Below, piece after piece: positions 14,681-61,041 of a DNA stretch of 64,000 bases. Location of the stretch: NCBI RefSeq assembly GCF_000715075.1, contig NC_134097.1, positions 130,012,997-130,076,996 on the forward strand, written 5' to 3'. How positions within the stretch are numbered: position 1 is the stretch's first letter; every line of letters begins with the position of its first letter. Position numbers and translations under genes: made by a program. The DNA is from Nicotiana tabacum. Its lineage: Eukaryota > Streptophyta > Magnoliopsida > Solanales > Solanaceae. Below the pieces are notes generated by a model. It was not told the origin of the DNA, made no database searches, and saw only the letters and a program-made list of their open reading frames with translations.

Positions 14681-14746
14681 CCGAACTACGCTGGTTTGAT
14701 TCTCACCGGATGTGAGATACGTAGGCAACCCTCATCGGGTCCAACC
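14681..14746 (+). repeat. CTACR structured motif, unit 1 copy 1
   Basis: CTACG pairs with CGTAG. Between them CTCAC-CGGAT-GTGAG forms a hairpin, and ACCC-TCATC-GGGT forms a second hairpin after GCA. Confidence 0.75.
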
Positions 14747-14903
14747 CCACCTTCTCAAAAAAGAAGGAATGTTTTATGTTTTTCGTTAATTTGTTTGTTT
14801 GTTATGAATGAAAAATAATAGTCTATTTGATTGTTGTGGGAAAAATAACAAAAACAAAAAATATAGAAAATGGAAAAGGGTCCTCTCAAAAATAGTTTAT
14901 TCG

Positions 14904-14970
14904 CCCGAACTACGCGGGTTTGATTCTCACCGGATGTGAGATACGTAGGCAACCCTCATCGGGTCCAACT
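14904..14970 (+). repeat. CTACR structured motif, unit 1 copy 2
   Basis: Nearly identical to copy 1, and 151 nt upstream of the ORF1 start. Stems CTACG/CGTAG, CTCAC/GTGAG and ACCC/GGGT. Confidence 0.75.
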
Positions 14971-15121
14971 CCCCTTTCCATTTTACCAATAATGATATAC
15001 CATAAAGCATATATGTACACACATGTATATAAATACATATACTGTTTGTTTTGTTTTCCAAGATTTTTGTTTAGAGTCAAAATAAAGGTTTCTGTTTTGG
15101 CCTAAAAGGTCACCTTAATAA

Positions 15122-17167
15122 ATGTGCAGGATGAGCACAGAGAAAAATGAACCATTCTCGGCCCTCAGCGAGGTCCCCCTACAACTCCACATGTGGTGGA
15201 ATGATTTGGAAGCCAATAGCAAAGAGGTAGTAGGAAGAATATTGGGAGGTTTTGTAAATTTGTTGGGCGTTAGGCCAAGGACAGATATTCTTGAAGCTCT
15301 AATACCATTTTGGGACCCAACCCGCAATGTATTCCGTTTTGTTGACTTTGAACTTTCACCAACACTTGAGGAAGTCGCCGGATATGCGGGATTGAATGAG
15401 AGGTTAAGAGGGCAATATTTGCTTTCGCCAAGGCCAGTGTCTCCGCATGCGTTTCTGGATCTACTAAGCATTAGTCGGAAGGTACAACATGACGATTTAT
15501 CGAGAGGATATTGTGATCTCCATTTCTTGTATCAGCGGTACGGAACCCCGCAGGGTTTTGAGGAACCAAACCTTGGGTTAACTCACGGAGGGAACAGAAA
15601 CAAATGGGAAGCAAGACGTACTTTGGCTTTTATCACAGCATTCTTGGGAGTCATGGTCTGTCCAAGGAAGGATAAAAAGATAGAGATAGGTCTGGTAGGG
15701 ATGGCCGACGTGGCAATCAAAAGAACCAATAGTACTGTGGTTCCTTTGATTTTGTCCGAAATCTACCGGGCTCTGACTATATGCCGAGAAGGAGGCAAGT
15801 TCTTCCAAGGTTGCAACCTGTTACTTCAGCTATGGATGCAGGAACATCTCCATCACCGAGTAGGATACATGAACCACGGGTTGACCGAGAGGAATTGTAT
15901 CAGCGGATTCAAGAAGCGCATGACAGGCGCCAGATTTCCTGAAGGCGTCGAAGCATGGTTTACACGGTTAAGGTCAACAACAGCTGACCAAATTGAATGG
16001 GCATTCGGTTGGTTGGCTGATACTGAGGTGATCTACATGTCGGCTGAAGAATGTCATGTTCTCTTAATAGGCCTTCGCAGCATCCAGCCATATGCCCCTC
16101 ATCGGGTATTACGACAATTGGGCAGGTTTCAAGTAGTCCCTACTGACGAAGACATGAGCAAGCATGCCTTAGAATTAAGCCCGGGAGTCATATTCCCCGA
16201 GGGGAAGATTAGAAAACTGTGGCATGAATGTAGATTCTTGGAGCCCAAGACCATGGTGCGAGAACTAGCCAAAGGTGAGGTAGACCCAAAGTACGATGCT
16301 TGGTTCAAAGGAAGGTTTCAGATTCGGCAAAGACCTGCTAAAAGGGCACACGTCCAACACTTCACAGATGATTCGCAAGAGCAATGGGGATGGTTAAAAA
16401 GGGAGGAAGGTTACCGGGTTGAAATCGGGAAGCTAAAGCAACAAGTAGAAAGACTTACATTCGAGAACAATGTGCAAGCCGCTTCGGAGCAGGCTGAAAG
16501 AAACAAGCTAGCCCAAGAAAACCAAATCTTGAAGGCCCGCCTTCACCAAGACAGTAAGAGTGACGTTGACCGACAGAAGCGTCGCTCTGACGAAAGATTG
16601 ATAGCAAGTTTGAGAAGTCAGGTCATCCAGAGCCAAGAAGAATTAGAACAATCAGAAGCATGCATAGCAAGGATGAAGGTCAGATGGGCAAGGCACACAA
16701 TGGCCCGGAAGCAGCGTTTGCAACAGGTCATAAGGGATTATGAGATGAGCATCGGAATATTGAGGGAGACGAACTCCACTCTACATGATCGGATCGTCAA
16801 ACAAGCACGAGATGCCCAAGCCGACAGAAGGCGATGTTACGATGCAATGACCAGAATGGAAAGACGAATGGAGATATTCCAGGATCAGCTTGCCAACAAT
16901 GCGCAAACACTGGGGTTGAAGAACCGACAGATAAGGCATTTGTTCGCAGAAAGGGACAACATTCCAGGAAGGATCGACGAGATTGGGCATTACATCTACA
17001 TGAGATGCCTGGCATGCGAGCAAATGCCTCGGAAGACCCTCCTTGTTTCCATCATGGGTTGCGTCCACCGAATCATGAATGAGTTGAAAGGTCTGCAGAG
17101 AGACCTCACACCAAGGGCCGCGGAAAGGCCGAATGATGCCTCGCGGGCCCCTAAGTTGGAAAATTAA
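15122..17167 (+). CDS. Ogre ORF1 protein, unit 1
   Basis: This is a 681-codon intact ORF upstream of gag, the hallmark of Ogre/Tat elements. ATG 15122 is followed by a second in-frame ATG at 15131 (MSTEKNEP), which may be the true start. Residues about 15-330 form the conserved domain often labelled DUF7745 (LEALIPFWDPTRNVFRF, GGKFFQGCNLLLQLWMQEH, EWAFGWLADTEVIYM). Residues about 425-600 are Gln/Glu/Arg-rich with heptad spacing, a likely coiled coil. A conserved C-terminal block has MRCLACEQMPRK. The same blocks recur in element C. The role of ORF1 is unknown; a nucleic-acid or particle function is a guess. Confidence 0.85.
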   Translation: MCRMSTEKNEPFSALSEVPLQLHMWWNDLEANSKEVVGRILGGFVNLLGVRPRTDILEALIPFWDPTRNVFRFVDFELSPTLEEVAGYAGLNERLRGQYLLSPRPVSPHAFLDLLSISRKVQHDDLSRGYCDLHFLYQRYGTPQGFEEPNLGLTHGGNRNKWEARRTLAFITAFLGVMVCPRKDKKIEIGLVGMADVAIKRTNSTVVPLILSEIYRALTICREGGKFFQGCNLLLQLWMQEHLHHRVGYMNHGLTERNCISGFKKRMTGARFPEGVEAWFTRLRSTTADQIEWAFGWLADTEVIYMSAEECHVLLIGLRSIQPYAPHRVLRQLGRFQVVPTDEDMSKHALELSPGVIFPEGKIRKLWHECRFLEPKTMVRELAKGEVDPKYDAWFKGRFQIRQRPAKRAHVQHFTDDSQEQWGWLKREEGYRVEIGKLKQQVERLTFENNVQAASEQAERNKLAQENQILKARLHQDSKSDVDRQKRRSDERLIASLRSQVIQSQEELEQSEACIARMKVRWARHTMARKQRLQQVIRDYEMSIGILRETNSTLHDRIVKQARDAQADRRRCYDAMTRMERRMEIFQDQLANNAQTLGLKNRQIRHLFAERDNIPGRIDEIGHYIYMRCLACEQMPRKTLLVSIMGCVHRIMNELKGLQRDLTPRAAERPNDASRAPKLEN

Positions 17168-17711
17168 TCTTTGGTTGAGTCTTGTTTATTTGGTTTTGTT
17201 GTTTTTCCATATGTTGTTTTCTTTTCTTTTAGTCAAAACGGCTTAAGAACTGTGGAGTCTGTACTATTGCTATTCCTTGCTTGAAGTAATTTGTAATAGC
17301 AAAATTTTGAGAATGAATTTAACGATTTCACAAGAATTTTGTGTTTCTTTACTTTAAGGCAGAACTACGCCTGGTCTGATTCACGCGGGGACGTGATACG
17401 TAGGCAATCCCCATAAGATTCGACCGCTTTTAATAAATAAAAATAAAAATACAAAATAAAACACAGGGTTTCCCAAAGTACTTTAAAAATGGATGAATGA
17501 GCAAACCGGGATGACGTATGTTGTTTGAGGCAAGGCATGTAGAAACGATTAATTGCCTAGGTGCATTGCATCCTCTATGTGTTATGATCAAATCTGTTAA
17601 GCTCTAACACTAACAAAGTTTGTTGTTGTCTGATACAAGACAGTTAGTTGTTAAAGAATTCTGGCAACACATTCATACCAAACCAGATCCAAAGGACCGG
17701 TAGCAACAAGC
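17168..17711 (+). other. Spacer between ORF1 and gag, unit 1
   Basis: No gene is visible. It holds one CTACR motif copy (17361-17424) and otherwise T-rich sequence. Confidence 0.7.
17361..17424 (+). repeat. CTACR structured motif, unit 1 copy 3
   Basis: The stem is CTACG/CGTAG. The hairpins differ in sequence from copies 1-2 but keep pairing: TCACG-CGGGGA-CGTGA and AATC..GATT. GAA pairs with TTC as outer closure. It ends 287 nt before the gag ATG. Confidence 0.75.
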
Positions 17712-18155
17712 ATGACCACTTCTGAGAATAGTAATGAGGAAGAAAGGCCGATGAGCCAGTTGCTAAAAGAGGCAATGGAAAAGATTGAAAGGATGGGACT
17801 AGAGATGCATGCAATGCAGCTAGCCCTGGCCAAAACGCAAAAGAGCCCTGAGACACTGGGACACGTGCCGGAGTACCCTCACTCTGGCCCTTCCACAAGC
17901 CGCCCAAACCCCCTCTATCATCAAGAAAGAAGCCCTCATGATTCCCAAGCTCCACCACCCCATCAACCTCTCCCAACATCCAATATTCCCATTTTTGTGG
18001 GACCTGCATCAGCCCCTTTGCAACGAACGACCAGTGAGCCATTGTTTCAGGCTCACGATACACAATACTATCCCCCTGAGCCTACATTCCACGTTTGGAA
18101 GTACCGGCAGAGGATGAGAAGCCGGTTAAGGCCCCTGAACAGGATGAAGTGTTAA
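17712..18155 (+). pseudogene. gag: Ogre gag N-terminus, unit 1 (out of frame with the rest)
   Basis: ATG 17712 opens a 147-codon frame: a helical start (SQLLKEAMEKIERMGLEM) and a Pro-rich linker ending near SEPLFQ..YYPPEPTF. It matches the start of gag in element C. At about 18090 the homologous frame moves to 18095-21142, a -1 register change. Compared with element C about 30 bases that are not a multiple of three appear to be missing here. The last 20 codons of this frame are shadow sequence. Unit 2 has the same break, so it predates the duplication. Confidence 0.72.
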
Positions 18156-21142
18156 GAAAGTTCAAAAGCCTGGAGCAATCCTTCAGAAACTTGCACGGGC
18201 TAGGCAATCAAGTCAGCGTGGCATACAAAGATCTGTGCCCTTTCCCAGATGTCCAACTCCCGGCTGGGTTCAAGATGCCCAAGTTTGATTTATATGAAGG
18301 GCACGGTGATCCCATGGCACATTTGCGGGGATTCTGTAGCAAAATGAGAGGGGCAGGAGGCAAGGATGAGCTTTTGATAGCTTACTTCGGCCAAAGTCTG
18401 AGCGGATCTGCACTGGAATGGTATACCAGGCAGGATTTCAGCAGGTGGTACACGTGGGATGATCTGGCACAGGCTTTTGCAGGTCATTTCCAGTACAATC
18501 TAGAGATAGTCCCCGACCGTCTCACATTATTGAGAACTGGGAAGAAACCCGGGGAAAGTTTTCGCGAGTTCGGATTCCGCTGGAGAGAACAAGCAGCTAG
18601 AGTCGATCCTCCCATGAGAGAGGGAGAAATGGTAGACTACTTTTTGCAGACATTGGATCCAACCTACTTTGGTCACTTGGTGACAACGGTTGGAAAATCT
18701 TTCAACGAGGTGGTCAAAATAGGGGTCATGATAGAAGAAGGTTTGAGGTCGGACAAGATCTTAAACTATTCGGCACTTAAGGCCACAACCCAGGCTATTC
18801 AAAGCGGCACGGGAGGTGCGCTAAGAAGAAAGAAAGAAGAGGTTGCCACGATCGAGGCAGGCAGTTGGTCCAGGGCTGGCAGGCCGCACTACAACCAACC
18901 CAGGCCTCACAGGTCAAACTACCCATACAACCCACCACAAAATTTCTATCCACCTCGAGAACCGCATTGTTCCGTACACCAAGCCCAGATATACACTCAG
19001 CCTCCGGTTCGCCCACAATGGCGCGCACCGGCTCCCCAGAACATATATGCACCACCACAAAACACTTACCCTCCACCAAGGGCATATAGAAATCCTTCAG
19101 GGGCAGGTTTCCGGGGAAATCCAGATGCCAGAAATGACAGGTTGCGGAAACAAAGAACCTTCACCGAACTGGGAGAAACCTACACCGCTGTGTTCCACAA
19201 GCTGCGGCAATTAGGTTTGGTTAGTCCTGTCCATACTCGGGAACCAAATCCTCCGCCTCAGAATTTGGATCGTTCAATCAGTTGTGAATACTGTTCAGGG
19301 ATGCTCGGGCACGATACCGAGAAGTGTTGGAAGTTAAGGCATGCCATACAGGATCTTATTGACACCAATAAGATCGAGGTCCAGACACCGGAGGCTCCTA
19401 ACATCAACCAAAACCCGCTGCCAGCGCACCACGAAGCTCACATGATTGAGTTGGTGTGTGAGGGAGGTGAATTAAGAAAACCCTCACAAACAGTGATGAT
19501 GATCCAAGCTGCCCCAAAAGAAGTCTTAACCAGTGGAGGAACAAATGTACAGTCGCAGGGAGAAGGCGTCAAGCCGGTAGTAATATGGGGGAAGAACCCG
19601 TCCGCCATAGCAAGCAAACCCGAGCCAAGCAAGTTGGTAATACCAGGGATCCTGCCCACACCGGCGGTCGTGTTGAAAGGGGTATGTAGAGAACGGGTAA
19701 CCATAAAGCCGGTGGTCCAACTGCCTATGCTTGACAGCAGGGCTGTGCCCTGGAAATATGAAAAAGCAGTGGTGACGTACCAAGGAAAACAGGTGGAAGA
19801 AGTCAGTTGTGAAGCGCAAGGGCTGACCCGATCAGGTCGATGTTTTGTTCCGGTGGAGTTAAGAAAAACCAACCCAGTGGCAACCAAGAAGCCAGTGTCA
19901 GAGGAAGAGGCTGAAGACTTCCTAAGGAAGATGAAAGTACAAGACTATTCTGTGGTTGAGCAGCTGAGAAAAACGCCTGCCCAGATCTCACTATTGTCAT
20001 TACTCCTCCATTCCGAGGAACATCGCAGGGCCCTGTTAAAGATACTGAACGAGGCCCATGTACCCAGTGAGATTTCCGTAAACCACCTGGAAACCATTGC
20101 CAGCAAGATTTTCGAGGTGAACAGGGTAACATTCTCAGATGATGACCTGCCGATGGAAGGTACGGAGCATAACAAAGCTCTATATCTAGCTGTCAAATGT
20201 GAAGACTCGGTGGTAACTCGAGTATTGGTGGATAATGGCTCAAGCGCCAATATTTGTCCATTATCCACCCTGGACCAGTTAAAGATTGACCGTGGAAGAA
20301 TCCGGGAGAATAGCATCTGTGTCCGAGGGTTTGACGGAAACGGAACAGCCACTGTGGGGGATGTTGTACTTGAACTAACCATTGGCCCGGTCCTGTTTAC
20401 CATGGAATTCCAGGTGTTGGACGCCACGGTATCTTACAACTTGTTGTTAGGACGACCTTGGATTCATGCAGCTAAAGCGGTGCCTTCCACCCTACATCAG
20501 ACAGTGAAGTTCGAGTGGGAAAGACAAGAGGTCGTGTTGCACGGCGAGGATACGACATGCACCATGGGCGGAACCATTGTGCCTTTCATAGAGACCACTG
20601 ATGACAAGGGTCCCTGGGTCTACCAGATTCTCGATACAGGGTCGGCCAACAAAATTTCTGAAGGAGAAATCATCCCGCACCCTAGGGTGACTGCCGCAAC
20701 AGTAATGATGGTATCAGAAATGCTGGGTAATGGGTTTGTGCCGGGAAAAGGCCTGGGAGTTGAACTTCAAGGGATAGTCCAACCTGTCTCCCTTCCTAAG
20801 AATCTGGAAACTTTCGGGTTGGGGTTCAAACCAACCGCAGCAGACAGGAAGCAAGCGCGAAAAATGAAGAAGAGGGTCTGGTTTCTGCCTAAACCAGTGC
20901 CACGCCTCTCAAGGTCTTTTGTTAAAGCTAGTGCCAAGGGGTCAGCGATCCCAAAGATTCGAGGACCTTTGATCGGCATAAGTGAAGACCTGAATCAGAG
21001 TTTTGAGAGACTATTCGCGGATGTCAGTATGGTGGAAGCTGGAGAGGGTTCCAGCAGAGCAGAGATACAATTTGTGGGGCCTGAGGCCAAGACCAACAAT
21101 TGGACGGTTACTCCTCTCCCTGTCCGAGGGGAGTCTTGGTAG
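18095..21142 (+). CDS. gag-pro: Ogre gag-protease, unit 1
   Basis: The frame is open for 1015 codons from a TTG with no ATG near its start, consistent with loss of the upstream part by frameshift. Gag core at residues about 60-200 (GDPMAHLRGF, SGSALEWYTRQ, WDDLAQAFAGHFQYN, GESFREFGFRWRE). A Pro/Tyr-rich linker follows. The knuckle CEYCSGMLGHDTEKC near 397-411 has CX2CX5HX4C spacing, one residue longer than usual. The aspartic protease has VDNGSS near 712-716 (D-N-G rather than D-S/T-G, also seen in element C) and LLGRPWIHAAKAV. A G-patch-like segment (GNGFVPGKGLGVELQG) lies near 880-895. The stop at 21140-21142 lies inside the predicted intron. Confidence 0.87.
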   Translation: MEVPAEDEKPVKAPEQDEVLRKFKSLEQSFRNLHGLGNQVSVAYKDLCPFPDVQLPAGFKMPKFDLYEGHGDPMAHLRGFCSKMRGAGGKDELLIAYFGQSLSGSALEWYTRQDFSRWYTWDDLAQAFAGHFQYNLEIVPDRLTLLRTGKKPGESFREFGFRWREQAARVDPPMREGEMVDYFLQTLDPTYFGHLVTTVGKSFNEVVKIGVMIEEGLRSDKILNYSALKATTQAIQSGTGGALRRKKEEVATIEAGSWSRAGRPHYNQPRPHRSNYPYNPPQNFYPPREPHCSVHQAQIYTQPPVRPQWRAPAPQNIYAPPQNTYPPPRAYRNPSGAGFRGNPDARNDRLRKQRTFTELGETYTAVFHKLRQLGLVSPVHTREPNPPPQNLDRSISCEYCSGMLGHDTEKCWKLRHAIQDLIDTNKIEVQTPEAPNINQNPLPAHHEAHMIELVCEGGELRKPSQTVMMIQAAPKEVLTSGGTNVQSQGEGVKPVVIWGKNPSAIASKPEPSKLVIPGILPTPAVVLKGVCRERVTIKPVVQLPMLDSRAVPWKYEKAVVTYQGKQVEEVSCEAQGLTRSGRCFVPVELRKTNPVATKKPVSEEEAEDFLRKMKVQDYSVVEQLRKTPAQISLLSLLLHSEEHRRALLKILNEAHVPSEISVNHLETIASKIFEVNRVTFSDDDLPMEGTEHNKALYLAVKCEDSVVTRVLVDNGSSANICPLSTLDQLKIDRGRIRENSICVRGFDGNGTATVGDVVLELTIGPVLFTMEFQVLDATVSYNLLLGRPWIHAAKAVPSTLHQTVKFEWERQEVVLHGEDTTCTMGGTIVPFIETTDDKGPWVYQILDTGSANKISEGEIIPHPRVTAATVMMVSEMLGNGFVPGKGLGVELQGIVQPVSLPKNLETFGLGFKPTAADRKQARKMKKRVWFLPKPVPRLSRSFVKASAKGSAIPKIRGPLIGISEDLNQSFERLFADVSMVEAGEGSSRAEIQFVGPEAKTNNWTVTPLPVRGESW

Positions 21143-21320
21143 TAGGCTTTGATTAATGTTTTGTTTGTTTGTTTGTTTGATCGGATTATTCAAGGGTGTA
21201 ATCCCAATTTTACTTTCGTTTTGTAAAAGTGTGAACCCTTTTTATCCTGCAAATTTAATAAAGTTCTTTTCTTTTGTCCCGTTTTTAATTTCTTGTTTTG
21301 TTCTTTTTCTTTCTGAACAG
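21139..21320 (+). other. Predicted intron between protease and RT, unit 1
   Basis: The donor is GTAGTA at 21139 or GTAGGC at 21142 (both the same phase), and the acceptor is CTTTCTGAACAG ending at 21320. Splicing removes the gag-pro stop and joins the frames in register. An intron at this place is an established Ogre feature. The 182-nt body is T-rich. Confidence 0.65.
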
Positions 21321-24300
21321 TTTTCTTTTTACTGGTCCTAATGACATGGCATGCACAGCGGATCTTCGACCTAGTCTAAATAATCAATCTGAATCTGACT
21401 CAATGATGCAAGAGGTCGTTTGTGATAATGAACCCGAAGGTGACGAAGGGGAAGCCTTCGAAGAAATAAACCGAGAACTGTGCCAATTTGAAGAGAAACC
21501 CAAGCCTAACCTAAATGACACTGAGGCTGTGAACCTAGGAGACGCTGATAACATCCAAGAGACCAAAATTAGCATCCACATTGAGCCGAATGTCAAAGCA
21601 GAATTGATCGAAACTCTCAGGGAATTCAAAGATGTTTTTGCATGGTCATATGATGATATGCCTGGATTGAGCACCGATTTAGTGGTTCACAAATTGCCCA
21701 CTGACCCGGCATACCCTTCGGTCAAGCAAAAACTAAGGAAATTTAAAACAGAAATGAGTGTAAAGATCAAAGAAGAAGTGATTAAGCAGTTGCAATCGAA
21801 GGTCATTCGGGTCACTCGGTATCCCGAGTGGCTGGCCAATGTGGTACCAGTCCCAAAGAAGGATGGAAAAATCAGGGTGTGCGTCGACTACCGCAACCTC
21901 AACAAAGCAAGTCCCAAGGACAATTTCCCGTTACCCAACATTCATATCCTGATCGATAATTGTGCTGGGCGCGAGATCGGATCCTTTGTGGATTGCTATG
22001 CGGGTTATCATCAGATCCTAATGGACGAAGAGGATGCTGAGAAGACAGCGTTTATTACGCCATGGGGAACCTACTGCTATCGGGTAATGCCGTTCGGATT
22101 AAAGAACGCAGGAGCAACGTACATGCGAGCAATGACTGCTGTGTTCCATGACATGATACACAAAGAAATAGAAGTGTACGTCGATGATGTGATCATCAAA
22201 TCTTGGCGTCAGGAGGACCATGTGGCATACCTAAGGAGATTTTTCCAAAGACTCCGGAGGTATGATATCAAGCTTAACCCGGCCAAATGCGCATTCGGGG
22301 TTCCATCAGGAAAGTTGCTAGGATTCATCGTCAGTCGACGGGGGATTGAGTTAGACCCATCCAAAATTGAATCCATCCGAGACTTGCCACCGCCAAGGAA
22401 CAAAACAGAGGTAATGAGTTTGCTGGGTAGACTCAACTACATCAGCAGGTTCATCGCTCAACTCACAGCAACTTGTGAGCCCATATTTCGGCTACTGAGA
22501 AAGGATGCTGCAGTAGGTTGGACAGCAGAGTGTCAGGAGGCCTTCGACCAAATCAAAGGGTATCTGTCTAATCCACCCGTATTGGTCCCACCTAAGCCCG
22601 GGAAACCCCTAATCCTTTACCTGACGGTCTTGGAAAATTCATTTAGTTGTGTATTGGGGCAACATGATGACACAGGGAGGAAGGAGCAGGCCATCTACTA
22701 TCTTAGCAAGAAATTCACAGTGCATGAGGTCAAGTACACTCAACTCGAGAAAACATGTTGCGCCCTAACTTGGGTAGCTCAGAAGTTGAAGCACTACCTG
22801 TCTTCATACACTACTTATCTCATATCCCGTGTGGACCCGTTGAAGTATATCTTTCAGAAACCTATGCCCACGGGAAGGTTGGCAAAATGGCAAATTCTGC
22901 TCACAGAGTTTGATATCATCTACGTGACAAGGACGGCCATGAAAGCCCAGGCACTGGCAGACCATTTGGCAGAGAATCCCGTCGATGAGAAATACGAGCC
23001 CTTAAGAACGTATTTTCCTGACGAAGAGGTGATGCATACGAATGAGTTGGAAATACCCGAGGAACCGGGTTGGAAGCTTTTCTTCGATGGAACGGCAAAC
23101 GCAAAAGGGGTTGGAATAGGAGCAGTACTCATTTCTGAAACAGGACGGCATTATCCTGTTACGGCTCAACTACGCTTCTATTGCACCAACAATATGGCCG
23201 AATATGAAGCTTGCATTCTGGGTCTGCGCTTGGCTGCTGACATGGGTGTCCAAGACGTCTTGGTCTTGGGAGACTCGGACCTCTTGGTACATCAAATTCA
23301 GGGTGAATGGGAAACACGAGATCTAAAGCTCATACCATACCGACAATGCTTGCATGATCTGAGCAAGAAATTTCGATCGGTAAAGTTCAAACATATCCCG
23401 AGAGTTCACAATGAGGTTGCGTATGCCTTAGCCACCTTGGCATCAATGCTGCACCACCCTGACAAAATGTATGTTGATCCTCTACACATCCAGGTCCGTG
23501 ATCAGCACGCCTACTGCAATGCCATAGAAGAAGAAGCGGATGGCGAACCCTGGTTTCATGATATCAAAGAATACCTTAGGATGGGGATATATCCAGAACA
23601 TGCTTTTGGGGACCAAAAAAGAGCCCTTCGGCGTTTGTCGAATGGTTTCTTCCTCAGTGGAGGAGTATTGTACAAAAGAACCCCGGATTTGGGATTGTTG
23701 AGATGCATAGATGTCGGGCAGGCAACGACGGTTATGGCGGAAGTACATGCCGGAGTTTGTGGGCCACACATGAGCGGATATATATTGGCAAGAAAGATCC
23801 TTCGAACAGGGTGTTATTGGCTAACCATGGAACACGACTGTATCACTTTCGTAAGGAAATGCCATCAGTGCCAGATACATGGAGATTTGATTCGTTCTCC
23901 GCCAACAAAGTTACATACGATGTCAGCACCCTGGCCGTTTGTAGCATGGGGCATGGATGTCATTGGGCCCATCGAGCCAGCAGCGTCCAACGGTCATAGG
24001 TTCATTCTAGTGACCATTGATTACTTCACCAAATGGGTTGAGGCTAAAACCTTCAAATCAGTAACTAAGAAAGCAGTGGTGGACTTTGTTCACTCCCATA
24101 TCATCTGCAGATTTGGGATCCCAAAAGTGATCATCACAGATAACGGTGCGAATCTTAATAGCAGCCTGATGAAAGAGGTATGCCAACAATTCAAGATTAC
24201 ACACCGCAATTCCACCCCATATCGTCCTAAGGCAAATGGAGCAGTCGAAGCAGCCAATAAGAATATCAAGAAGATACTGCGAAAAATGGTGGAAGGGTCC

Positions 24301-24798
24301 AGACAGTGGCACGAGAAATTGCCCTTTGCTTTGTTGGGTTACCGCACTACCGTCCGGACTTCCATAGGCACAACTCCTTATTTGTTGGTGTATGGAACTG
24401 AGGCCGTGATCCCAGCGGAGGTCGAAATTCCGTCCCTCCGAATTGTCGCTGAAGCCGGGATTGATGATGATGAATGGGTAAAAGCTCGATTGGAACAGTT
24501 GAGCCTGATAGATGAGAAAAGATTGGCAGCAGTGTGCCATGGTCAACTGTATCAGAAGAGAATGGCAAGAGCATATAACAAGAAGGTGCGCCCCAGGAAG
24601 TTTGAGGTAGGGCAGCAGGTGTTAAAGAAGATCCTCCCACATCAGGTCGAAGCAAAAGGCAAATTCGCCCCAAATTGGCAAGGGCCTTATATCGTGACCA
24701 GAGTATTGTCCAACGGCGCTCTGTGTTTGACAGATATCGAGGGTAGATGTGTCGACATGGCTATCAATTCAGATGCAGTCAAGAGATATTATGCGTAA
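21321..24798 (+). CDS. pol: Ogre pol: RT, dual RNase H, integrase, unit 1
   Basis: The frame is open from 21298, where it begins with TTG; I start it at the predicted exon. Numbering from 21298: RT has RVCVDYRNLNKASPKDNFPLP and YVDD at 294-297. The first RNase H lacks its catalytic residues (LYLTVLENS where DAS is expected), as in Tat elements. A second, archaeal-type RNase H has FFDGT (D597), MAEYEA and GDSDLL, but its last Asp is Tyr (residue 709, TAT at 23422-23424), so it is probably inactive. Integrase has an HHCC finger and D887, D948, E984 (D,D-35-E), then NWQGPYIV. The stop is at 24796-24798. Confidence 0.9.
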
Positions 24799-25022: not shown

Positions 25023-25087
25023 ACCGTGGGAACTACGTTTGACCTGATTCCTCAAAGAGGATACGTAGGCGCCTCACGGCTCGGTCA
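25023..25087 (+). repeat. CTACR structured motif, unit 1 copy 4
   Basis: CTACG/CGTAG stem; hairpins TCCTC-AAA-GAGGA and GCC-TCAC-GGC; ACCG/CGGT as outer closure. It lies just after pol. Confidence 0.72.
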
Positions 25088-26424: not shown

Positions 26425-27300
26425 GCGGGAATACATTTTAAGTTCTAGGTCGCCCACCAGTATAATGCGGGAATACTTTTAAGTTCTAGGTCGCCCACCA
26501 GTATAATGCGGGAATACATTTAAGTTCTAGGTCGCCCACCAGTATAATGCGGGAATACTTTTAAGTTCTAGGTCGCCCACCAGTATAATGCGGGAATACA
26601 TTTTAAGTTCTAGGTCGCCCACCAGTATAATGCGGGAATACATTTAAGTTCTAGGTCGCCCACCAGTATAATGCGGGAATACATTTAAGTTCTAGGTCGC
26701 CCACCAGTATAATGCGGGAATACTTTTAAGTTCTAGGTCGCCCACCAGTATAATGCGGGAATACATTTTAAGTTCTAGGTCGCCCACCAGTATAATGCGG
26801 GAATACTTTTAAGTTCTAGGTCGCCCACCAGTATAATGCGGGAATACATTTAAGTTCTAGGTCGCCCACCAGTATAATGCGGGAATACTTTTAAGTTCTA
26901 GGTCGCCCACCAGTATAATGCGGGAATACATTTTAAGTTCTAGGTCGCCCACCAGTATAATGCGGGAATACATTTAAGTTCTAGGTCGCCCACCAGTATA
27001 ATGCGGGAATACATTTAAGTTCTAGGTCGCCCACCAGTATAATGCGGGAATACTTTTAAGTTCTAGGTCGCCCACCAGTATAATGCGGGAATACATTTAA
27101 GTTCTAGGTCGCCCACCAGTATAATGCGGGAATACATTTAAGTTCTAGGTCGCCCACCAGTATAATGCGGGAATACATTTAAGTTCTAGGTCGCCCACCA
27201 GTATAATGCGGGAATACATTTTAAGTTCTAGGTCGCCCACCAGTATAATGCGGGAATACATTTAAGTTCTAGGTCGCCCACCAGTATAATGCGGGAATAC
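26425..27300 (+). repeat. 41-bp tandem array, 21 units, unit 1
   Basis: The unit GCGGGAATAC + (ATTTA, TTTTA or ATTTTA) + AGTTCTAGG + TCGCCCACCAGTATAAT repeats 21 times. Naming the three variants A, B and C, the order is CBABCAAB, CBABCAAB, AAACA, so an 8-unit block was itself duplicated. Hypervariable 3' arrays are known in Ogre-type elements. Confidence 0.95.
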
Positions 27301-27560
27301 TTTTGTTTGAGTCATTGAGGTTTTATTTTAGCAGACGCATTTGCTAACAAAAGTTTTGTTTTACCCGTAGGAGATGCACATCCTAGCCTAGTCTTTAGTT
27401 TACTCATCATTGCATCAGTAGTATAAATGAGTTACAATTTTGCTAACGACTCACGAATCTTCCTAGTACAAACTGGGTTAGGAAATTTTGTTTGTTTTGT
27501 TTGTTTTGATTGTCAGGGACCCGCCTGTAGAATGGAGGGTGTTGCGTGTCAAAGAAAAGA

Positions 27561-28165: not shown

Positions 28166-28236
28166 TCCGAACTACACGTGGCCTGATTCCTGTATAACCA
28201 AGGATATGTAGGCAGCTCAGATACCAGGGCTCGGTC
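28166..28236 (+). repeat. CTACR structured motif, unit 1 copy 5
   Basis: Here the conserved stem is CTACA/TGTAG, a double change that keeps the pair. The hairpins are TCCT..AGGA and AGCTC..GGGCT, with CCGA/TCGG as closure. Confidence 0.75.
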
Positions 28237-28336
28237 ACAATCCCTCCCTTTCCTTAAGTGTAGTCCGTCCAAGCAATGGTCGGGTCAAAAACACGTCTGG
28301 TCGTTCTTTGTCGGAAAACTCTTCGTGTTTCCAGTC

Positions 28337-28349
28337 AAAGAGGGGCAGC
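28337..28349 (+). other. Polypurine tract, unit 1
   Basis: AAAGAGGGGCAGC directly precedes the TG of LTR2; it is the plus-strand primer site. Confidence 0.8.
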
Positions 28350-30950: not shown

Positions 30951-30954
30951 GCTC

Positions 30955-32544: not shown

Positions 32545-32610
32545 CCGAACTACGCTGGTTTGATTCTCACCGGATGTGAGATACGTAGGCAACCCTCATC
32601 GGGTCCAACC
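32545..32610 (+). repeat. CTACR structured motif, unit 2 copy 1
   Basis: Identical to the unit 1 counterpart. Confidence 0.75.
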
Positions 32611-32767: not shown

Positions 32768-32834
32768 CCCGAACTACGCGGGTTTGATTCTCACCGGATG
32801 TGAGATACGTAGGCAACCCTCATCGGGTCCAACT
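32768..32834 (+). repeat. CTACR structured motif, unit 2 copy 2
   Basis: Identical to the unit 1 counterpart; 151 nt before ORF1. Confidence 0.75.
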
Positions 32835-35224: not shown

Positions 35225-35288
35225 AGAACTACGCCTGGTCTGATTCACGCGGGGACGTGATACGTAGGCAATCCCCATAAGATTCGAC
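35225..35288 (+). repeat. CTACR structured motif, unit 2 copy 3
   Basis: Same as 17361-17424; between ORF1 and gag. Confidence 0.75.
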
Positions 35289-35575
35289 CGCTTTTAATAA
35301 ATAAAAATAAAAATACAAAATAAAACACAGGGTTTCCCAAAGTACTTTAAAAATGGATGAATGAGCAAACCGGGATGACGTATGTTGTTTGAGGCAAGGC
35401 ATGTAGAAACGATTAATTGCCTAGGTGCATTGCATCCTCTATGTGTTATGATCAAATCTGTTAAGCTCTAACACTAACAAAGTTTGTTGTTGTCTGATAC
35501 AAGACAGTTAGTTGTTAAAGAATTCTGGCAACACATTCATACCAAACCAGATCCAAAGGACCGGTAGCAACAAGC

Positions 35576-42889: not shown

Positions 42890-42954
42890 ACCGTGGGAAC
42901 TACGTTTGACCTGATTCCTCAAAGAGGATACGTAGGCGCCTCACGGCTCGGTCA
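42890..42954 (+). repeat. CTACR structured motif, unit 2 copy 4
   Basis: Same as 25023-25087. Confidence 0.72.
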
Positions 42955-44291: not shown

Positions 44292-45167
44292 GCGGGAATA
44301 CATTTTAAGTTCTAGGTCGCCCACCAGTATAATGCGGGAATACTTTTAAGTTCTAGGTCGCCCACCAGTATAATGCGGGAATACATTTAAGTTCTAGGTC
44401 GCCCACCAGTATAATGCGGGAATACTTTTAAGTTCTAGGTCGCCCACCAGTATAATGCGGGAATACATTTTAAGTTCTAGGTCGCCCACCAGTATAATGC
44501 GGGAATACATTTAAGTTCTAGGTCGCCCACCAGTATAATGCGGGAATACATTTAAGTTCTAGGTCGCCCACCAGTATAATGCGGGAATACTTTTAAGTTC
44601 TAGGTCGCCCACCAGTATAATGCGGGAATACATTTTAAGTTCTAGGTCGCCCACCAGTATAATGCGGGAATACTTTTAAGTTCTAGGTCGCCCACCAGTA
44701 TAATGCGGGAATACATTTAAGTTCTAGGTCGCCCACCAGTATAATGCGGGAATACTTTTAAGTTCTAGGTCGCCCACCAGTATAATGCGGGAATACATTT
44801 TAAGTTCTAGGTCGCCCACCAGTATAATGCGGGAATACATTTAAGTTCTAGGTCGCCCACCAGTATAATGCGGGAATACATTTAAGTTCTAGGTCGCCCA
44901 CCAGTATAATGCGGGAATACTTTTAAGTTCTAGGTCGCCCACCAGTATAATGCGGGAATACATTTAAGTTCTAGGTCGCCCACCAGTATAATGCGGGAAT
45001 ACATTTAAGTTCTAGGTCGCCCACCAGTATAATGCGGGAATACATTTAAGTTCTAGGTCGCCCACCAGTATAATGCGGGAATACATTTTAAGTTCTAGGT
45101 CGCCCACCAGTATAATGCGGGAATACATTTAAGTTCTAGGTCGCCCACCAGTATAATGCGGGAATAC
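44292..45167 (+). repeat. 41-bp tandem array, 21 units, unit 2
   Basis: Same copy number and same order of A, B and C variants as the unit 1 array. Confidence 0.95.
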
Positions 45168-45427
45168 TTTTGTTTGAGTCATTGAGGTTTTATTTTAGCA
45201 GACGCATTTGCTAACAAAAGTTTTGTTTTACCCGTAGGAGATGCACATCCTAGCCTAGTCTTTAGTTTACTCATCATTGCATCAGTAGTATAAATGAGTT
45301 ACAATTTTGCTAACGACTCACGAATCTTCCTAGTACAAACTGGGTTAGGAAATTTTGTTTGTTTTGTTTGTTTTGATTGTCAGGGACCCGCCTGTAGAAT
45401 GGAGGGTGTTGCGTGTCAAAGAAAAGA

Positions 45428-46032: not shown

Positions 46033-46103
46033 TCCGAACTACACGTGGCCTGATTCCTGTATAACCAAGGATATGTAGGCAGCTCAGATACCAGGGCTCG
46101 GTC
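46033..46103 (+). repeat. CTACR structured motif, unit 2 copy 5
   Basis: CTACA/TGTAG form, as at 28166-28236. Confidence 0.75.
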
Positions 46104-46203
46104 ACAATCCCTCCCTTTCCTTAAGTGTAGTCCGTCCAAGCAATGGTCGGGTCAAAAACACGTCTGGTCGTTCTTTGTCGGAAAACTCTTCGTGTTTCCA
46201 GTC

Positions 46204-50201: not shown

Positions 50202-51504
50202 TGATAATAGGTGAATTTAACTTTATTCAGACCCTAAATAACCGCCTTCTTGCATAGTTTTGATAATAAAAGTGATAACAAAATGCTCTTATTAGTGCTT
50301 TTCATGATTTGCAGGTTATATATGACTAAGGAAGGCTAGGGAGCACGTTTGGAGTGAAAAAAAATGAAGAAAGAGAGGCCAACCATGAAATATCCCAAGT
50401 GAACCATGCAAAACAGGCTGAAGAATCAGAAAACTGAGTCTATCGCGGTTCCACCACGACCGCGGTAGAACCGCGGTGAAGGATGTTCGCGGATAGAAGG
50501 ATGATCAGAGGCCATGTTTGGCCGCGGTTCTACCGCGACCGCGGCAGAACCGCGGCAAGAGGCGGGAATTTCAGGGACTAAAGTGCAAAACACGGGATTT
50601 TTAGCCCAAAACCCTATTTTAAACACTAGACTTCGCCCAAGAGAGGCATGTATTGATTTTGAGAGTATCTTGGCAAGAAAAACAATTGTGAGAGATCACC
50701 CAAAACATCTTTCTTCTTTTCTTTGATTTCTATTGCTAGTTTATGATGAATCTTATCTTAGTTTGTTTACCCATAGTTATGAGTAGCTAAATCTTTTGTC
50801 TAAGGTTTTGATGGAACCTATTGGGGGATGAACTTCTTGTTTATGTGAATACAAATTGCTAGTTTCAATCTTTATTTGTTCAACTTTGTGTATGTTGTAG
50901 TTAATTGACAGGATCCTCAATTAGTTGTGCCTATTTAGTGTGCATAACTCGGGAGAGAGTGCATATTTAGGTTATTGTTGAATAACAACACTCCTAAAGT
51001 ATAAGAGGAATCTATAACTGCGGGTTTAAAGGCGGGATTAGGGATAACGAAGCCTTGGGTACAATCTTAAGTGAACTGTGTTAATTAAAGCTAGCTAGTG
51101 TATCTCGGGAGAGTGCAATAGTATATTACTGTGATTACTCGGGAGAGATTTATGGTAAGACGAGCGTTCATGATTGATAGAGAAGTGTTGGTACATTTGT
51201 ATGAAGCATAAACAGAAGGGATTCCATCAATAGGGGAAATCTTTACCTTAGCTTTATCTCTTCATTGTTTACAACCTTAGCGTTTTAGTTTACAGCCTGT
51301 TTAATTTACTTGCAATCTTAGTTAATAAAGAAATCATCAACTTGTGATTCAAACATTTGGCAAGCTGGTTCTGAAGAGTTTAGTGAGTCTAAAGATAGTG
51401 ATTGATAGGTTGACTCTCTGTGGATTCGACCCTGGGCGTAATACTCGGGTTATATTTGCAACGTCCGCATTGTCCTTTTTATAAGGCATAGTTGGGCGTG
51501 ATCA
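50202..51504 (+). repeat. Athila 3' LTR
   Basis: 1303 bp, the full-length partner of 877-2179. Its CG-rich hairpins (50444-50476, 50522-50555) are closer to perfect than those in the 5' copy, e.g. CCACGACCGCGG against CCAGGACCGCGG. Confidence 0.95.
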
Positions 51505-51509
51505 ATACC
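51505..51509. repeat. Right target-site duplication of the Athila insertion
   Basis: ATACC, matching 872-876. Confidence 0.92.
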
Positions 51510-52523: not shown

Positions 52524-53257
52524 TTATGGCAAAATCTAGAACACTTTGCTAGTAGCCATACCTGCCCATGGTTGTTATGTGGAGACTTCAATGAAGTCAC
52601 CTCTAGTACAGACAAGTTTGGTGGTAATCCCATTAATTTAAATCGGACTACTGCATTAAATAACAGCCTTACCATAATCGATCTAGGTTTCACTGGGTCA
52701 AATTATACTAGTACTAGGACTAATAAACGTACTATTAGGAGTAATCTCATTCTAGAACGACTAGATAAGTTCTATGCAAATGATGCTTGGCTTCTCATGT
52801 TTGTCGATTGCAGTGTCCTATATTTACCACATACTCAATCTATCCATTGCTCATTAATACTTAATCTCCACAAAGCTGCCTCAAAGCCTCCACCCGCATT
52901 CAGATTCGAGCCACCCCGATTTCTCTTCTAGCGTATCTGCTAATTGGTCTTCCAATTCACACTATCCTAATACATTACAAAATTTTACCAACCATGCAAT
53001 TAATTGGAATAAGGAGACCTTTGGCAACATTTTCTACAAAAGGAAAATTACATTAGCCTAGACTTAAGGGGTTGCAAACAATGGATGTAACTAAGTAAAA
53101 TAGCTTTCATTACATCTTAAAAATTCACTAATTACTGATTTTAGCTAACTGTTAAAACATGAAGAAGACTTTTGGAAGCTAAAATCGCACATCCAATGGC
53201 TCAATGAAGGAGATGTCAACACTCGCTTCTTCCATATTATGACCACTCAACGTCGCC
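52524..53257 (+). pseudogene. LINE ORF2 fragment, endonuclease C-terminus to linker
   Basis: The plus strand encodes LLCGDFNEVTSSTDKFGG (the GDFNE box of APE-type LINE endonuclease), NLILERLDKFYAND, and QSIHCSLIL where SDHCPL is expected, so the catalytic Asp of that box is lost. Further on, HAINWNKETFGN and FWKLKSHIQWLNEGDVNTRFFH mark the linker before RT, with stops between. The sequence is cut at 53258 by an LTR. It lies in opposite orientation to ORF1. Confidence 0.8.
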
Positions 53258-57039: not shown

Positions 57040-57043
57040 GCTC

Positions 57044-57061
57044 TGGCGACTCTGCTGGAGA
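57044..57061 (+). other. Element C primer-binding site
   Basis: TGGCGACTCTGCTGGAGA, the tRNA-Arg-type site with one or two changes from the Ogre copy. Confidence 0.75.
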
Positions 57062-58270
57062 TCGAACTCAGAATCTCTGGTTCAGGGTTCAAGAATTCGA
57101 GCTTTTTAATATGATTTTATTTGGCTTTATTTATTGTTAATATTACTGTATTTTATGAACCTTTTGTGTTAATTGCTGTCTATTTACCGCTTTGATATTA
57201 TTTGAATTGTATATAACTGTCTTCTTACGCCACCCCTCTAAGTCTTCTGAAAATGGTGCACATGTTCACATGGCCCGCTTTTTTCTGTAGAAGTCATACC
57301 AAATAGAACGAGGCTGGGCCAGCAACAAGGTCGGTAGACTTTAGTGCTCCCGGTACATTGCCCCCTCTTCGGTTCGAGTTGTCCGCTCGGGTAAGCCAGG
57401 TGAAGAACACAACCCCAGGTTTAAACTTAGAATAACACAACCTCATGTTGGATCCCTAGTAGGAACATTTGTTTGCATCATGTGCATTTGACTTTGGGGA
57501 CTCAACACAGGGTTTGGGTCCGTCTAGGACAGGTGTACCCAAAATAATAGACCATCCTGATGCATCCTATGTGCTATGTGAATATTTATTTGTTTCGGCT
57601 TGCATGTTGATCGGCTAGGAAAAGTAAATCAAGAGGAAAACTAAGAGTGATGTAGGAAAGAAATAAATCCTGGTTCTGAAAAATCCCTGGTATTTGGAAA
57701 TATCCCAAAACTCTGCCAAAATTTTCAAAAAAAAAGAGAGAAAAAGAAAATAGTCAAGGAAAAAGAGTCATTTCAAAATGAGTCGATAATATGTCTCTTT
57801 CAAATATGTCAAAACTGACCGAACTACGCAGATTTGATTCTCACCGGATGTGGGATACATAGGCAACCTACATAAATTTCGGCCTTATTTTTCAAAAAAA
57901 AAGAGTAAATGGTCAAATAAATGCAGTTTAGGGTTTTGGTCAAAAGAATAAGCGGATCCAGCTTCGGTCATGTCTTAAGTCGTTCTTGCCGGGATAGCCT
58001 TAGAGTATCTTCAGTTGTCGAAGGGCTATTTTCGTAAAGAATGGATAAGTCTATCGGTAAAGTGTCATTTTTCCATGAAGTACTTCTCCCCGACCTCAAA
58101 AATTATTTTAAATTGTGAAGGGGCCACATTTGCAAAAACGACCACTTTTGCTAAAAGTAGCATAGAGGGGAGGGGGTCATGTTCCGTTGATTTTTCTTTT
58201 AGAAATTGAAAAACCTGTTTTACAAAAGTCCACCAGAGTCAACCCTAACCTTAACCTTCCACAGGTACAT
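57062..58270 (+). other. Element C leader
   Basis: Non-coding. The part 57363-57584 is conserved with the Ogre leader. One CTACR motif lies at 57818-57884. Confidence 0.75.
57818..57884 (+). repeat. CTACR structured motif, element C copy 1
   Basis: Closure CCGA/TCGG and hairpin CTCAC-CGGAT-GTGGG are kept, but CTACG faces CATAG, so the middle stem is damaged, as expected in a decayed element. Confidence 0.65.
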
Positions 58271-60344
58271 ATGAACACTGTCCAGAACCCGTCACAACTG
58301 GTCATAGAACAGGTTCAGCTACAGCTATGTATGTAGTGGAACGATCTAGATAAAGATGGTCGGGATTGGGTAAAAGAGCATTTGGGTGCCCTTATAGACA
58401 TTCTGGAAATCGAACCATGGGAGGATCTAATCAAGGCTTTGGTAACTTTTTGGGACCCCGTCCATAACGTTTTCCATTTCTCGAATATTGAGCTCACCCT
58501 TACTCTGGAGGAAATGGCTAGGTATATTGAGTTTGGTCGGTACTTGAGGAAACAGCAACTTATATTCCCAAGGGCTCCCTCTGTACACAAGTTCTTTGAC
58601 CTCCTGAATATCAATAAGAAAATGAAGAAGGCCCATGTAAACAAAGGATATTGTTCTTTCTACTTCTTATACTTCAGGTTCGGGCACTCAGCTGGGTTCA
58701 AAACGCATGAAAAGGGTTTGAACAACAAACAAGATAAGAGAATCTGGCAAATTCATCGTCGGTTCGCTTTCATTGTAGAGTTTTTGGGGATTATGGTCTT
58801 TCCAAATGCAGAAGGGACAGTGGATAACCCTATGGCCAGAACTGCACAAATCCTCACTACTAAGAAAGATCATACACTTGCTCCGTTAGTGCTGGCAGAC
58901 ATTTATCGAGCATTGACATTGTGCAAGGCCGGGGCTCAATTTTTTAAAGGTTGCAATATTCTTCTACAAATGTGGTTGATTGAGCATCTCCGCCATCACC
59001 CCAAATTCATGAGGTATGGTTCGAGCGTAGATAACTTCATCAAGAGATACGAGGAAAAGGTGAAAGACTACAATGCTCCAGAAGGGTTTGAAGTCTGGGT
59101 CTCCCACTTGAAAGCTCTAAAAGTAAGTCAGGTCGAGTGGACTATAGGATAGCTCCCGATGATAGAAGCCATACACATGACGGCTACCAAGGGTTACCTA
59201 ATGTTGATGGGTTTGAGGAGTGTCCATCCATATGCACCGTAGAGGGTCTTAAGGCAGTTAGAAAGATATCAGGTGGTGCCCGAAGATGAATATCTAACCA
59301 CCCAGGTCATTGAGCTACATCCAGAAGCTACATTACCCGAGACTTTAGTTCAACAAGATTGGAATGATTGCCGGTATCTGAAAAATGGCACCCAGGTACC
59401 GGATGTTTCAAAGGGGGAAATGGATCCAGATTACGCTGCATGGTTTAAGAAAAGGTCTTGTGCAAACAATGAGCCAGAGCCCGAGCCCGAGAGGCCTGCC
59501 AAGAGACCTCATGTTCAAGCTTTTGATGATAAAGTCCAAGAAAGGTTGGCCTGGGAAGAAAAGGAGAAAAAATATCAAGCCACCATTCACACCTTAGAAG
59601 AGAAATTGAGAAACATGGAATTCAATAATGATCTCCAGGCACAAGAAGCGTAAGGTGAAAGGAGGAGGTTGGCCAAAGAAAATGAAGCCCTCTGAGCCCA
59701 AATCCAAAAAATGAAAATAGCCGCTGAGAACCCTGTTAGAAGTGAAAGAGATGAGAAACTTATAAACAAACTCAAGCTAAAAGTATGTGATTATGGATTT
59801 GACTTGGAAAAGACTGAAGCTGAACTAGCAAAATCCCGAGCCAAGTTAGCTATGAATGTGGAGGGACGGTCAAGTTTCGTTCGACAGCTGAAGGAGAAAT
59901 AAGACAATGGAATCATGGGGTTGAAGAGAAAGATCACCGTCCTTGAGAACGAAATAAACAAGCAGGCAAGAGATTTCAAAGCAGAAAGAGAACACAACTA
60001 TGCCCCAATGTCGCAGCAAGAAAAAGACCTGCAGCAACTTCAAGAGCAAAATCATACAGCCGAACAAGTTTTGGAGGCCAGATCTCAGCAGATTGGACGG
60101 TTGCTACAAGAGAAGGGTATCATCAGGGAAATGCAACTACATTGTGACGGTTAGGAGGATTGCAGACTACATTGTGATGAAATGCAACGAATGCGAGGAC
60201 ATGCCCAGGTCCATGTTCTTTGCTTCAGTTATAATTTTTGTCCGGCAGATCACAGATAACCTGTTCCGCATCCAAGAAGATATGGCGCATAGGCCCGCGG
60301 CGAGGCCAACCGGAGCAGCAATGGAAGCACTTATGTATTCTTGA
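58271..60344 (+). pseudogene. Element C ORF1, decayed
   Basis: Homologous to the 681-residue ORF1 of the Ogre units: WNDLDKDG, LVTFWDPVHNVFHF, FFKGCNILLQMWLIEHL, then a charged coiled-coil part and a C-terminal KCNECEDMPRS block. From ATG 58271 the frame holds until about 60150, with in-frame stops at 58334, 59150, about 59240, 59651, about 59693, 59900 and 60152. After that the homology moves to another frame (to 60344). The first stop replaces a Trp that is present in the intact relatives. Confidence 0.82.
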
Positions 60345-61041
60345 TTTTATATTTTTTTCAAGTGTGTATTGCAGTTTCTTTTAAAGTCTGTTAGTCCATT
60401 TTGAGTCCTGTTTTAGTTTTTGAAAATGTTTAAGTCTGTAGGGTGGAGTCGTTGTAATAGGAAAAACCGGGATGTTTTTATTTTATAAAAATTTGAAGAA
60501 AAAAAAAGAAAAAAACCAAAAAACGTGTCTTTTTTTATTTCGCATTTCTCCCTTGAACTACGTAATGATCTGATTCATGCGATGTCATGATATGTAGGCA
60601 ATCCCCATAGGATTCGATCATAACCATAAAATAAAAAAATAGAGAGAAAATAAAAACAAAATAAAAGGAAAGAACTGAGTGGAAAGAAATAATGGCAACA
60701 TGAGAGAGAAAAACAAGTGCAAAATAAAGGAAAGCAACAAAACAAGTGGGAAAGGCCAATAGTGATCAAAGAGAAGTTGGAGTGAAAAGAAAAAGAGAGA
60801 GAAGAGAAAGCGCAAAAATGAGAAAAGTTAGTTAAAAGCCGGGATGAAACATGCAGCCGTTTAAATACACGATAGAATCTTTAACTGTTTAGGTGCATTG
60901 CATCTCAAATGTGTGGTTGCCTATCTGTTAAATCTTAAACACTAACAAGTTGTTGTTGTTATTGAGAACAGGAAGGTGGTTAGTTTGTTCGGCATTCTAG
61001 CAACCCACCCGTACAACACCAGGTCTTAAAACTAGTTGATA
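60345..61041 (+). other. Element C spacer between ORF1 and gag
   Basis: No gene. A CTACR motif is at 60553-60619, flanked by A-rich sequence. Confidence 0.7.
60553..60619 (+). repeat. CTACR structured motif, element C copy 2
   Basis: Stem CTACG/TGTAG (one wobble), hairpins TCATG-CGATGT-CATGA and AATCC-CCAT-A-GGATT, outer closure TTGAA/TTCGA. It is at the same relative position as copy 3 of the Ogre units. Confidence 0.75.

Follow-up and report, generated by a model that had tools for sequence, protein, structure and literature searches.

Exoribonuclease-resistant RNAs (xrRNAs) of plant viruses combine covarying stems and a pseudoknot with near-invariant loops, and they occupy intergenic and 3′ untranslated region (3′ UTR) positions (PMC6299227). 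About 200 elements for nuclear expression (ENEs) have been described, mainly in plants and fungi, and Evade, a long terminal repeat (LTR) element of plants, gains mobility from an RNA-protecting ENE (PMC12501189). The Rous sarcoma virus (RSV) stability element, in turn, is active on transcripts whose 3′ UTR is long (PMC5580461, PMC2925335). Here we describe a recurrent motif in a 64,000-nt stretch of the Nicotiana tabacum genome (assembly GCF_000715075.1, contig NC_134097.1, positions 130,012,997 to 130,076,996; the window), where it lies in the spacers of two tandem Ogre retrotransposons and of a second, degraded family. Judging from sequence comparison, the motif is almost certainly a selected cis-acting RNA element of about 60–75 nt on the sense strand of Tat/Ogre RNA. 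It resembles the plant-virus xrRNAs in being compact and cis-acting, with intergenic and 3′-UTR positions, and the ENEs, including that of Evade, in being a structured element of plant transposon RNA; its fold looks like a new family of transposon structured RNA elements, a kind already known.

Predicted fold of the motif

Twelve copies of the motif are present in the window, all on the + strand and all at the starts listed in the first-pass annotation, a set that was borne out by inspection of the sequence, by a regular expression for the core (which matched 11 copies exactly and, of the one at 57818, the left half, and gave no complete match on the − strand) and by a covariance model trained on 83 copies, five of them from the window, which returned the same 12 window copies and nothing further at E values up to 1. 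The motif begins with GAA, the 5′ strand of a stem, P1 (CTACR), the 5′ strand of a pseudoknot, TGAT, hairpin 1 and TA, and continues with the 3′ strand of P1 (YGTAG), GCA, hairpin 2, 1–3 nt and the 3′ strand of the pseudoknot. When eight copies were compared (seven from the window and one from another plant, locus L002), the 4–6 bases directly 5′ of TGAT were found to complement bases past hairpin 2; because bases inside P1 thereby pair with the far 3′ end, this helix would be a pseudoknot. Seven of the eight copies can form it, including one with GGCCTT/AAGGCC, the copy at 57818 being the sole failure at the matching place. Hairpin 1, hairpin 2 and the constant linkers had been proposed in the first-pass annotation and stand. 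The outer closing stem proposed with them does not, as at least 4 bp of it form in 42 of 83 copies, compared with a mean of 46.1 for shuffled partners, and the pseudoknot had been overlooked.

Covariation among tobacco copies

The pseudoknot was assessed on the eight copies, when the window was still the only source of tobacco copies, by permuting partners; the register was taken from where hairpin 2 ends. Five-base-pair pairing with G-U allowed reached 38 of 40, a value matched by 4 of 40,320 permutations, and 4-bp Watson-Crick pairing reached 27 of 32, matched by 124 of 40,320. For seven copies, 19 of 20 inner pairs formed in hairpin 1 (4 of 5,040 permutations were as good) and 19 of 21 pairs in hairpin 2 (6 of 5,040).

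We then drew on the whole N. tabacum assembly (3,996,098,646 bases), in which the strict pattern GAACTACRN{3,9}TGATTCN{8,20}GATAYGTAGGC has 60,205 exact matches (30,538 + 29,667) and the reversed pattern, used as a control, has none, ruling out a chance origin. Copies were sampled from twenty 10-kb stretches, forty stretches of 131–141 nt, eight 3-kb loci, the window and the other plant's copy, with one row kept for each distinct first 75 bases (window copy 17362 is represented by an identical row from locus L010); the tobacco copies outside the window all lie within the first 5 Mb of a single contig. This gave 84 distinct copies, or an alignment of 83 rows when the other plant's copy is set aside. 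The four-helix model is 94.4% paired in the 83 tobacco copies, compared with 21–39% when the partners are slid by 1–3 columns, and the pseudoknot helix is 96.1% paired, with two-sided changes in all four of its pairs. In a structure-free alignment (effective number of sequences 28 of 84), two of the five highest pairs by corrected mutual information fall in hairpin 1, two in the pseudoknot and one in hairpin 2.

Significance was estimated with a tree-aware null, in which the changes of each column are replayed along a tree; it was computed with our own script in place of R-scape and with a tree built from the same short alignment. Among 2,295 column pairs the top four all belong to the fold: 52-66 (E=0.01) and 16-70, a pseudoknot pair (E=0.03), lie below E 0.05 and are followed by 24-37 (E=0.09) and 23-38 (E=1.1). 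Significant covarying pairs are therefore present by this null, although 16 of the 18 fold pairs singly do not fall under E 0.05 (14-72 has E=5.1 and 15-71 has E=8.5 over all pairs); six of these miss it because their columns do not vary. With the register left free and G-U allowed, 4-bp pseudoknots were counted in 76 of 83 copies against a shuffled mean of 68.5 and maximum of 76, a weak excess, and 5-bp pseudoknots in 44 of 83 against a mean of 26.9 and maximum of 35, a clearer one. Compensatory changes are also seen within several subfamilies, as between GGGTT/AACCC and GGGTC/GACCC, TGACC/GGTCA and TGACT/AGTCA, TGGCC/GGTCA and TGGCT/AGTCA, and ACC/GGT and ACT/AGT. One pseudoknot pair is T-A in 2,942 matches genome-wide. 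Nearly all of the 100 listed among these 2,942 belong to a large subfamily whose hairpin 1 is very short (TCC-GAAA-GGA) and whose pseudoknot is TGACT/AGTCA.

At fold pairs in the 83 copies, G-U outnumbers A-C by 73 to 33, and the same holds, by 23 to 7, for the nested pairs of 20 copies that do not fit the strict pattern (four of them also in the 83); selection on the sense RNA would produce such a bias. Within P1, four of five pairs do not vary in the 83 copies, a constancy imposed by the search pattern; in the 20 copies that do not fit it, the changes in P1 are chiefly C-G to U-G (5) or C-A (3). GAA, CTAC, TGATTC and GATA are near-invariant in the 83 copies, partly owing to the pattern, and in the other 20 the constant bases deviate little. 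The selected RNA fold in Tat/Ogre spacers suggested by the first-pass annotation is thus supported by covariation in both hairpins and in the added pseudoknot helix, together with constant linkers.

Positions of the copies in diverged elements

Each Ogre element of the window carries two copies before open reading frame 1 (ORF1), one between ORF1 and gag, one after pol and one before the polypurine tract (PPT), and copies also precede ORF1 and gag in the second family, in agreement with the placement first described. Copy 1 (class A, 14683..14746, located by inspection and covariance model), in the leader before ORF1, has P1 at 14686-14690 with 14720-14724 and a pseudoknot between GGTT at 14693-14696 and AACC at 14743-14746, with TGAT at 14697-14700, hairpin 1 at 14701-14717, TA at 14718-14719 and hairpin 2 at 14728-14740. 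Copy 2 (class A, leader, 14907..14970) has the pseudoknot GGGTT/AACTC, with one G-U, and its outermost pair extends to 14971. Copy 3 (class B, 17362..17425), between ORF1 and gag and about 195 nt downstream of the ORF1 stop, has GGTC/GACC, and copy 4 (class C, 25030..25087), about 230 nt past the end of the pol frame, has TGACC/GGTCA. Copy 5 (class D, 28169..28238), before the 3′ LTR and the PPT (located by eye), has GTGGCC/GGTCAC, with one G-U, and the P1 exchange of CTACG/CGTAG for CTACA/TGTAG that had been reported for it. The five copies of the second tandem element lie at 32547..32610, 32771..32834, 35226..35289, 42897..42954 and 46036..46105. In the second family, the class A copy at 57821..57884 is degraded, with a P1 mismatch (CTACG/CATAG, the 3′ strand being CATAG rather than CGTAG) and no pseudoknot pairing at the matching place; L030:1894, a class A copy similar to it in sequence, keeps GGTC/GGCC. 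The class B copy of this family (60555..60621) has six Watson-Crick pseudoknot pairs, ATGATC/GATCAT. All of these copies are on the + strand.

The ten Ogre copies had been taken to represent five independent ones. They do form five pairs, but only about four are distinct, because the tandem elements are 99.8% identical and copies 14681 and 14904 are near-duplicates; to these the two second-family copies are added.

Outside the window, the covariance model found 54 copies in the twenty 10-kb loci, and in 18 of the 18 loci with coding matches the copies share the strand of those matches (L016 also has an opposite-strand pol match 4.5 kb away). The other two, L019 and L021, have no coding match to the reference proteins of the window. 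L019 nevertheless has three copies (4630-7475), like classes A, B and C, and is perhaps a non-autonomous Tat derivative, an arrangement that fits any cis role and not just protection of an ORF. In seven elements with both a class A and a class B copy, each of the 14 copies resembles, on average, its class in the other six elements (A-A mean 80%, B-B mean 78%) more than it does the other-class copy of its own element (A-B mean 62%, highest 67%), indicating that the motif positions are old.

A copy beside a plant hAT transposase

When the genomes of 84,980 prokaryote species were scanned, two matches were found. The one in C. difficile (L001) lies inside a coding gene and was taken as chance (17.7 bits, E=0.004). 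The other lies on GTDB contig JAFUBK010000065.1 (L002/L072), from a Bacilli metagenome-assembled genome of roe deer jejunum; this contig looks chimeric, with bacterial genes, including a seemingly truncated SSB frame, joined to plant hAT transposon DNA. The plant DNA of the contig includes the gene of a hAT transposase (PF05699, E=1.9e-21; PF14372, E=2.0e-9) whose closest protein is 97% identical and whose nearest named relatives, from Dipteronia sinensis, are 73% identical over 85%. An intact motif begins 52 nt downstream of the stop codon and scores 42.3 bits (E=1.3e-11) with the covariance model trained without it. P1 and the hairpin-1 stem are those of class C, whereas the pseudoknot and hairpin 2 have sequences of their own and are still paired; the folding energy of this copy is z=-2.1.

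The position and the intact pairs favour the view that a plant hAT element took up the motif, which we consider roughly twice as probable as a stray piece of another element. Since the intact copy adjoins the stop codon of a hAT element, the function is probably not retroelement-specific, on this single case. Packaging and internal translation start, two roles raised in the first-pass annotation, become less likely with a copy just past the stop of a DNA transposon in another plant. A search of viral contigs for relatives of the motif gave none.

Comparison with known RNA families

No Rfam family was found in the whole window at gathering scores. Permissive matches (E up to 10; copies 1, 2, 3, 5 and the hAT copy) lie far below their thresholds and were taken as chance, among them Lnt RNA over copy 3 on the same strand (19.4 bits against a threshold of 55, E=0.59) and ceN28 over copy 1 on the other strand (17.2 against 70). 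Topic and short-string searches of the open literature, judged by the titles and abstract beginnings of the papers listed, found no account of the motif.

The motif shares with xrRNAs the combination of covarying stems and a pseudoknot with near-invariant loop bases; it differs in having no sequence family match and in being carried by a retrotransposon rather than an RNA virus. In the xrRNAD layout a P1-P2 stem has a loop that pairs downstream, whereas the upstream pseudoknot strand of the motif lies between P1 and hairpin 1 and not in a hairpin loop. The helix order P1, P2, P3 hairpin, P1′, P4 hairpin, P2′ is that of ribozymes of the hepatitis delta virus (HDV) type, which have one hairpin before and one after the P1 3′ strand; the motif has no Rfam match to them, and its sequence, its short P1 and its unconserved hairpin-1 loop set it apart. 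The hammerhead core contains CUGANGA and GAAA, where the motif has TGATTC and GATA, and no hammerhead appeared among the Rfam matches. ENEs have U-rich internal loops that receive an A-rich strand, and they occur once, in the 3′ UTR; the internal loop of the motif is TGAT/TA, and its copies lie all along the RNA. The RSV stability element is likewise placed behind a stop codon, in the long RNA of a retroelement, a position that agrees for copies 3, 4 and the hAT copy only, as the motif occurs in the leader and before the PPT as well; we know of no sequence or fold common to the two. The coremin (xrRNAC) consensus comprises a 4-bp hairpin with a YGAD loop, a spacer of 8–10 nt and a second hairpin (PMC10520033), and no common hairpin was seen by eye within 12 nt upstream of GAA in the eight copies. 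Because these features differ, we do not file the motif under HDV-like ribozymes, ENEs, coremin or xrRNAD, although it may work like an xrRNA.

Possible functions

From its many positions and the hAT copy, we infer that the motif serves the RNA itself rather than a step peculiar to retroelements. The similar placement and covariation pattern of plant-virus xrRNAs, with the Evade ENE as a precedent for RNA protection in a plant LTR element, make a roadblock that would stabilise RNA in the manner of an xrRNA the closest working model, one that we put forward tentatively and with less than even confidence. Ogre elements are noted for their great length, and their RNA would otherwise be exposed to decapping, nonsense-mediated decay and XRN decay. 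P1, the pseudoknot and the constant GAA, TGAT, TA and GCA would lock into a compact knot that bars 5′-to-3′ decay; with one copy per gene boundary, decay of the very long RNA would leave behind protected 3′ fragments that still carry ORFs, and reverse transcriptase, arriving from the 3′ side, could still unfold the knot.

Several observations weigh against this account. To our knowledge, the helix layout matches no class of xrRNA. Coremin xrRNAs hinder ribosome scanning in vitro (PMC10520033), and the leader (class A) copies might do the same. Locus L019 carries three copies with no match to any of ten window reference proteins. The hAT case comes from one contig, and no motif was found in the 601-nt 3′ regions of 20 tobacco hAT genes (of 67 matches), whose transposases are about 30% identical to that of the contig. 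As for the fold itself, the G-U excess owes much to a single pair (24 of 73 at columns 53-65), at columns 25-36 A-C exceeds G-U by 9 to 1, and the pseudoknot pair that is T-A in 2,942 matches is C-A in 731 genome copies. Nested-fold energies of seven window copies are no better than those of shuffled sequences (z -0.43 to +0.42); with z near 0 we rejected nested stability as proof of the fold, and the case rests on covariation, not on stability.

After the roadblock come export or splicing control and shielding from nonsense-mediated decay. In the former, which we regard as unlikely, the knot would bind host factors so that intron-keeping genomic RNA leaves the nucleus, much as the retroviral constitutive transport element does. 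The repeated copies with near-invariant internal loops suit such a role, as do acceptor-like sequences ahead of both ORF1 and gag in each family, by which classes A and B would be intronic, although these splice sites were read by eye. Ogre RNA is partly spliced, according to PMC6317226, which cites work in Pisum and Medicago; yet the gap at 21143-21288, the site of the known Ogre intron, holds no copy, and the need for export control is less obvious in the 3′ UTR of a hAT transposase. A stop-codon insulator, which like the RSV element would shield stops with very long 3′ regions from nonsense-mediated decay, seems a little less probable again. The copies past the ORF1, pol and hAT stops (by about 195, about 230 and 52 nt) accord with it, as does the action of the RSV element on long-3′-UTR RNAs, but neither of the leader copies, nor the copy ahead of the PPT, follows a frame of at least 150 amino acids.

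Translation control, by an internal ribosome entry site or a translation enhancer for ORF1 and gag, would explain why copies precede these genes in both families but not those after pol, before the PPT and after the hAT stop, and we consider it improbable. Slightly more so is a packaging, dimerisation or reverse-transcription signal, which the three copies of L019, a region without detectable coding homology, could reflect; five dispersed copies per element and the hAT copy argue the other way. A self-cleaving ribozyme is very improbable: small size, many near-invariant unpaired bases and the HDV-like helix order speak for it, but no ribozyme family appeared among the permissive Rfam matches, P1 has only 5 bp, the hairpin-1 loops are not conserved and five cuts in one genomic RNA would be costly. 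Drift of duplicated sequence without selection, or a signal at the DNA level, is hardly credible, since, against the near-identical class A copies 1 and 2, the covariation inherited by subfamilies and the failure of most single fold pairs under the tree-aware null, the best four pairs of that null all lie in the fold, pairing is lost when partners are slid, G-U exceeds A-C and the constant linkers recur in the other plant's copy, outside the training of the model.

It is possible, though doubtful, that the motif represents a new class of transposon-borne pseudoknot RNA, common to LTR retrotransposons and hAT DNA transposons of distant flowering plants and used as a reusable protection (or RNA-cutting) module at each gene boundary. 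In that case tobacco would carry a structured RNA element in very large numbers, given its 60,205 strict matches. The motif bears on how the very long Ogre RNA survives, exits the nucleus and expresses ORF1 and gag. A defined knot at each gene boundary, whose pseudoknot can be disrupted and then repaired by paired mutations, makes the fate of Ogre RNA directly testable at the bench, and the strict matches should be of great use for the annotation of Tat elements, also where no coding homology is detectable.

Organization of the carrier elements

The two Ogre elements, 17.86 kb each, span window positions 10494-49022 as LTR-internal-LTR-internal-LTR, with the middle LTR common to both and a period of 17.86 kb. 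Their 99.8% identity extends over 20.7 kb, and the tandem probably arose by LTR-LTR recombination; the second, degraded family begins at about 56.8 kb. In the first element, all on the + strand, ORF1 (15131..17167) encodes a plant mobile domain / DUF7745 (PF10536, PF24924), the gag-pro region (17713..21142, start set by eye) consists of two overlapping frames with a G-patch match under the Pfam cut-off, and the pol frame (21289..24798) contains reverse transcriptase, RNase H, a second RNase H and integrase (RVT_1, RT_RNaseH, RVT_3 and rve in Pfam, in that order). The elements belong to Tat/Ogre, since gag is preceded by an ORF with the plant mobile domain, a second RNase H lies between RNase H and integrase, and a short gap separates the gag-pro and pol frames (end 21142, start 21289). 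The same domain layout (plant mobile domain in ORF1; reverse transcriptase, RNase H, second RNase H, integrase) is described for Ogre elements, 57% of which have the plant mobile domain (PMC6317226). Of the 27 ORF1 relatives among the matches listed, the 23 with a name are all from Nicotiana, the best, from N. tabacum, being 90% identical.

Acceptor-like sequences (a branch-point-like CTAAC or similar, then ...CAG), read by eye, occur at about 15130, 17672, 58266 and 60972, directly upstream of ORF1 and gag in both families. A merged gene model, P0024, was dropped as splice evidence because it is a predicted model and uninformative. A 1.3-kb direct repeat (98%) flanks the Ogre tandem at 877-2180 and 50202-51505. 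The stretch from the left repeat to the Ogre LTR contains gag, reverse transcriptase and integrase frames as well as one for Transposase_32, so the Ogre pair seems to be nested inside another gypsy-type element. Arrays of 41-bp tandem repeats occupy 26425-27304 and 44292-45171, between the class C and class D copies.

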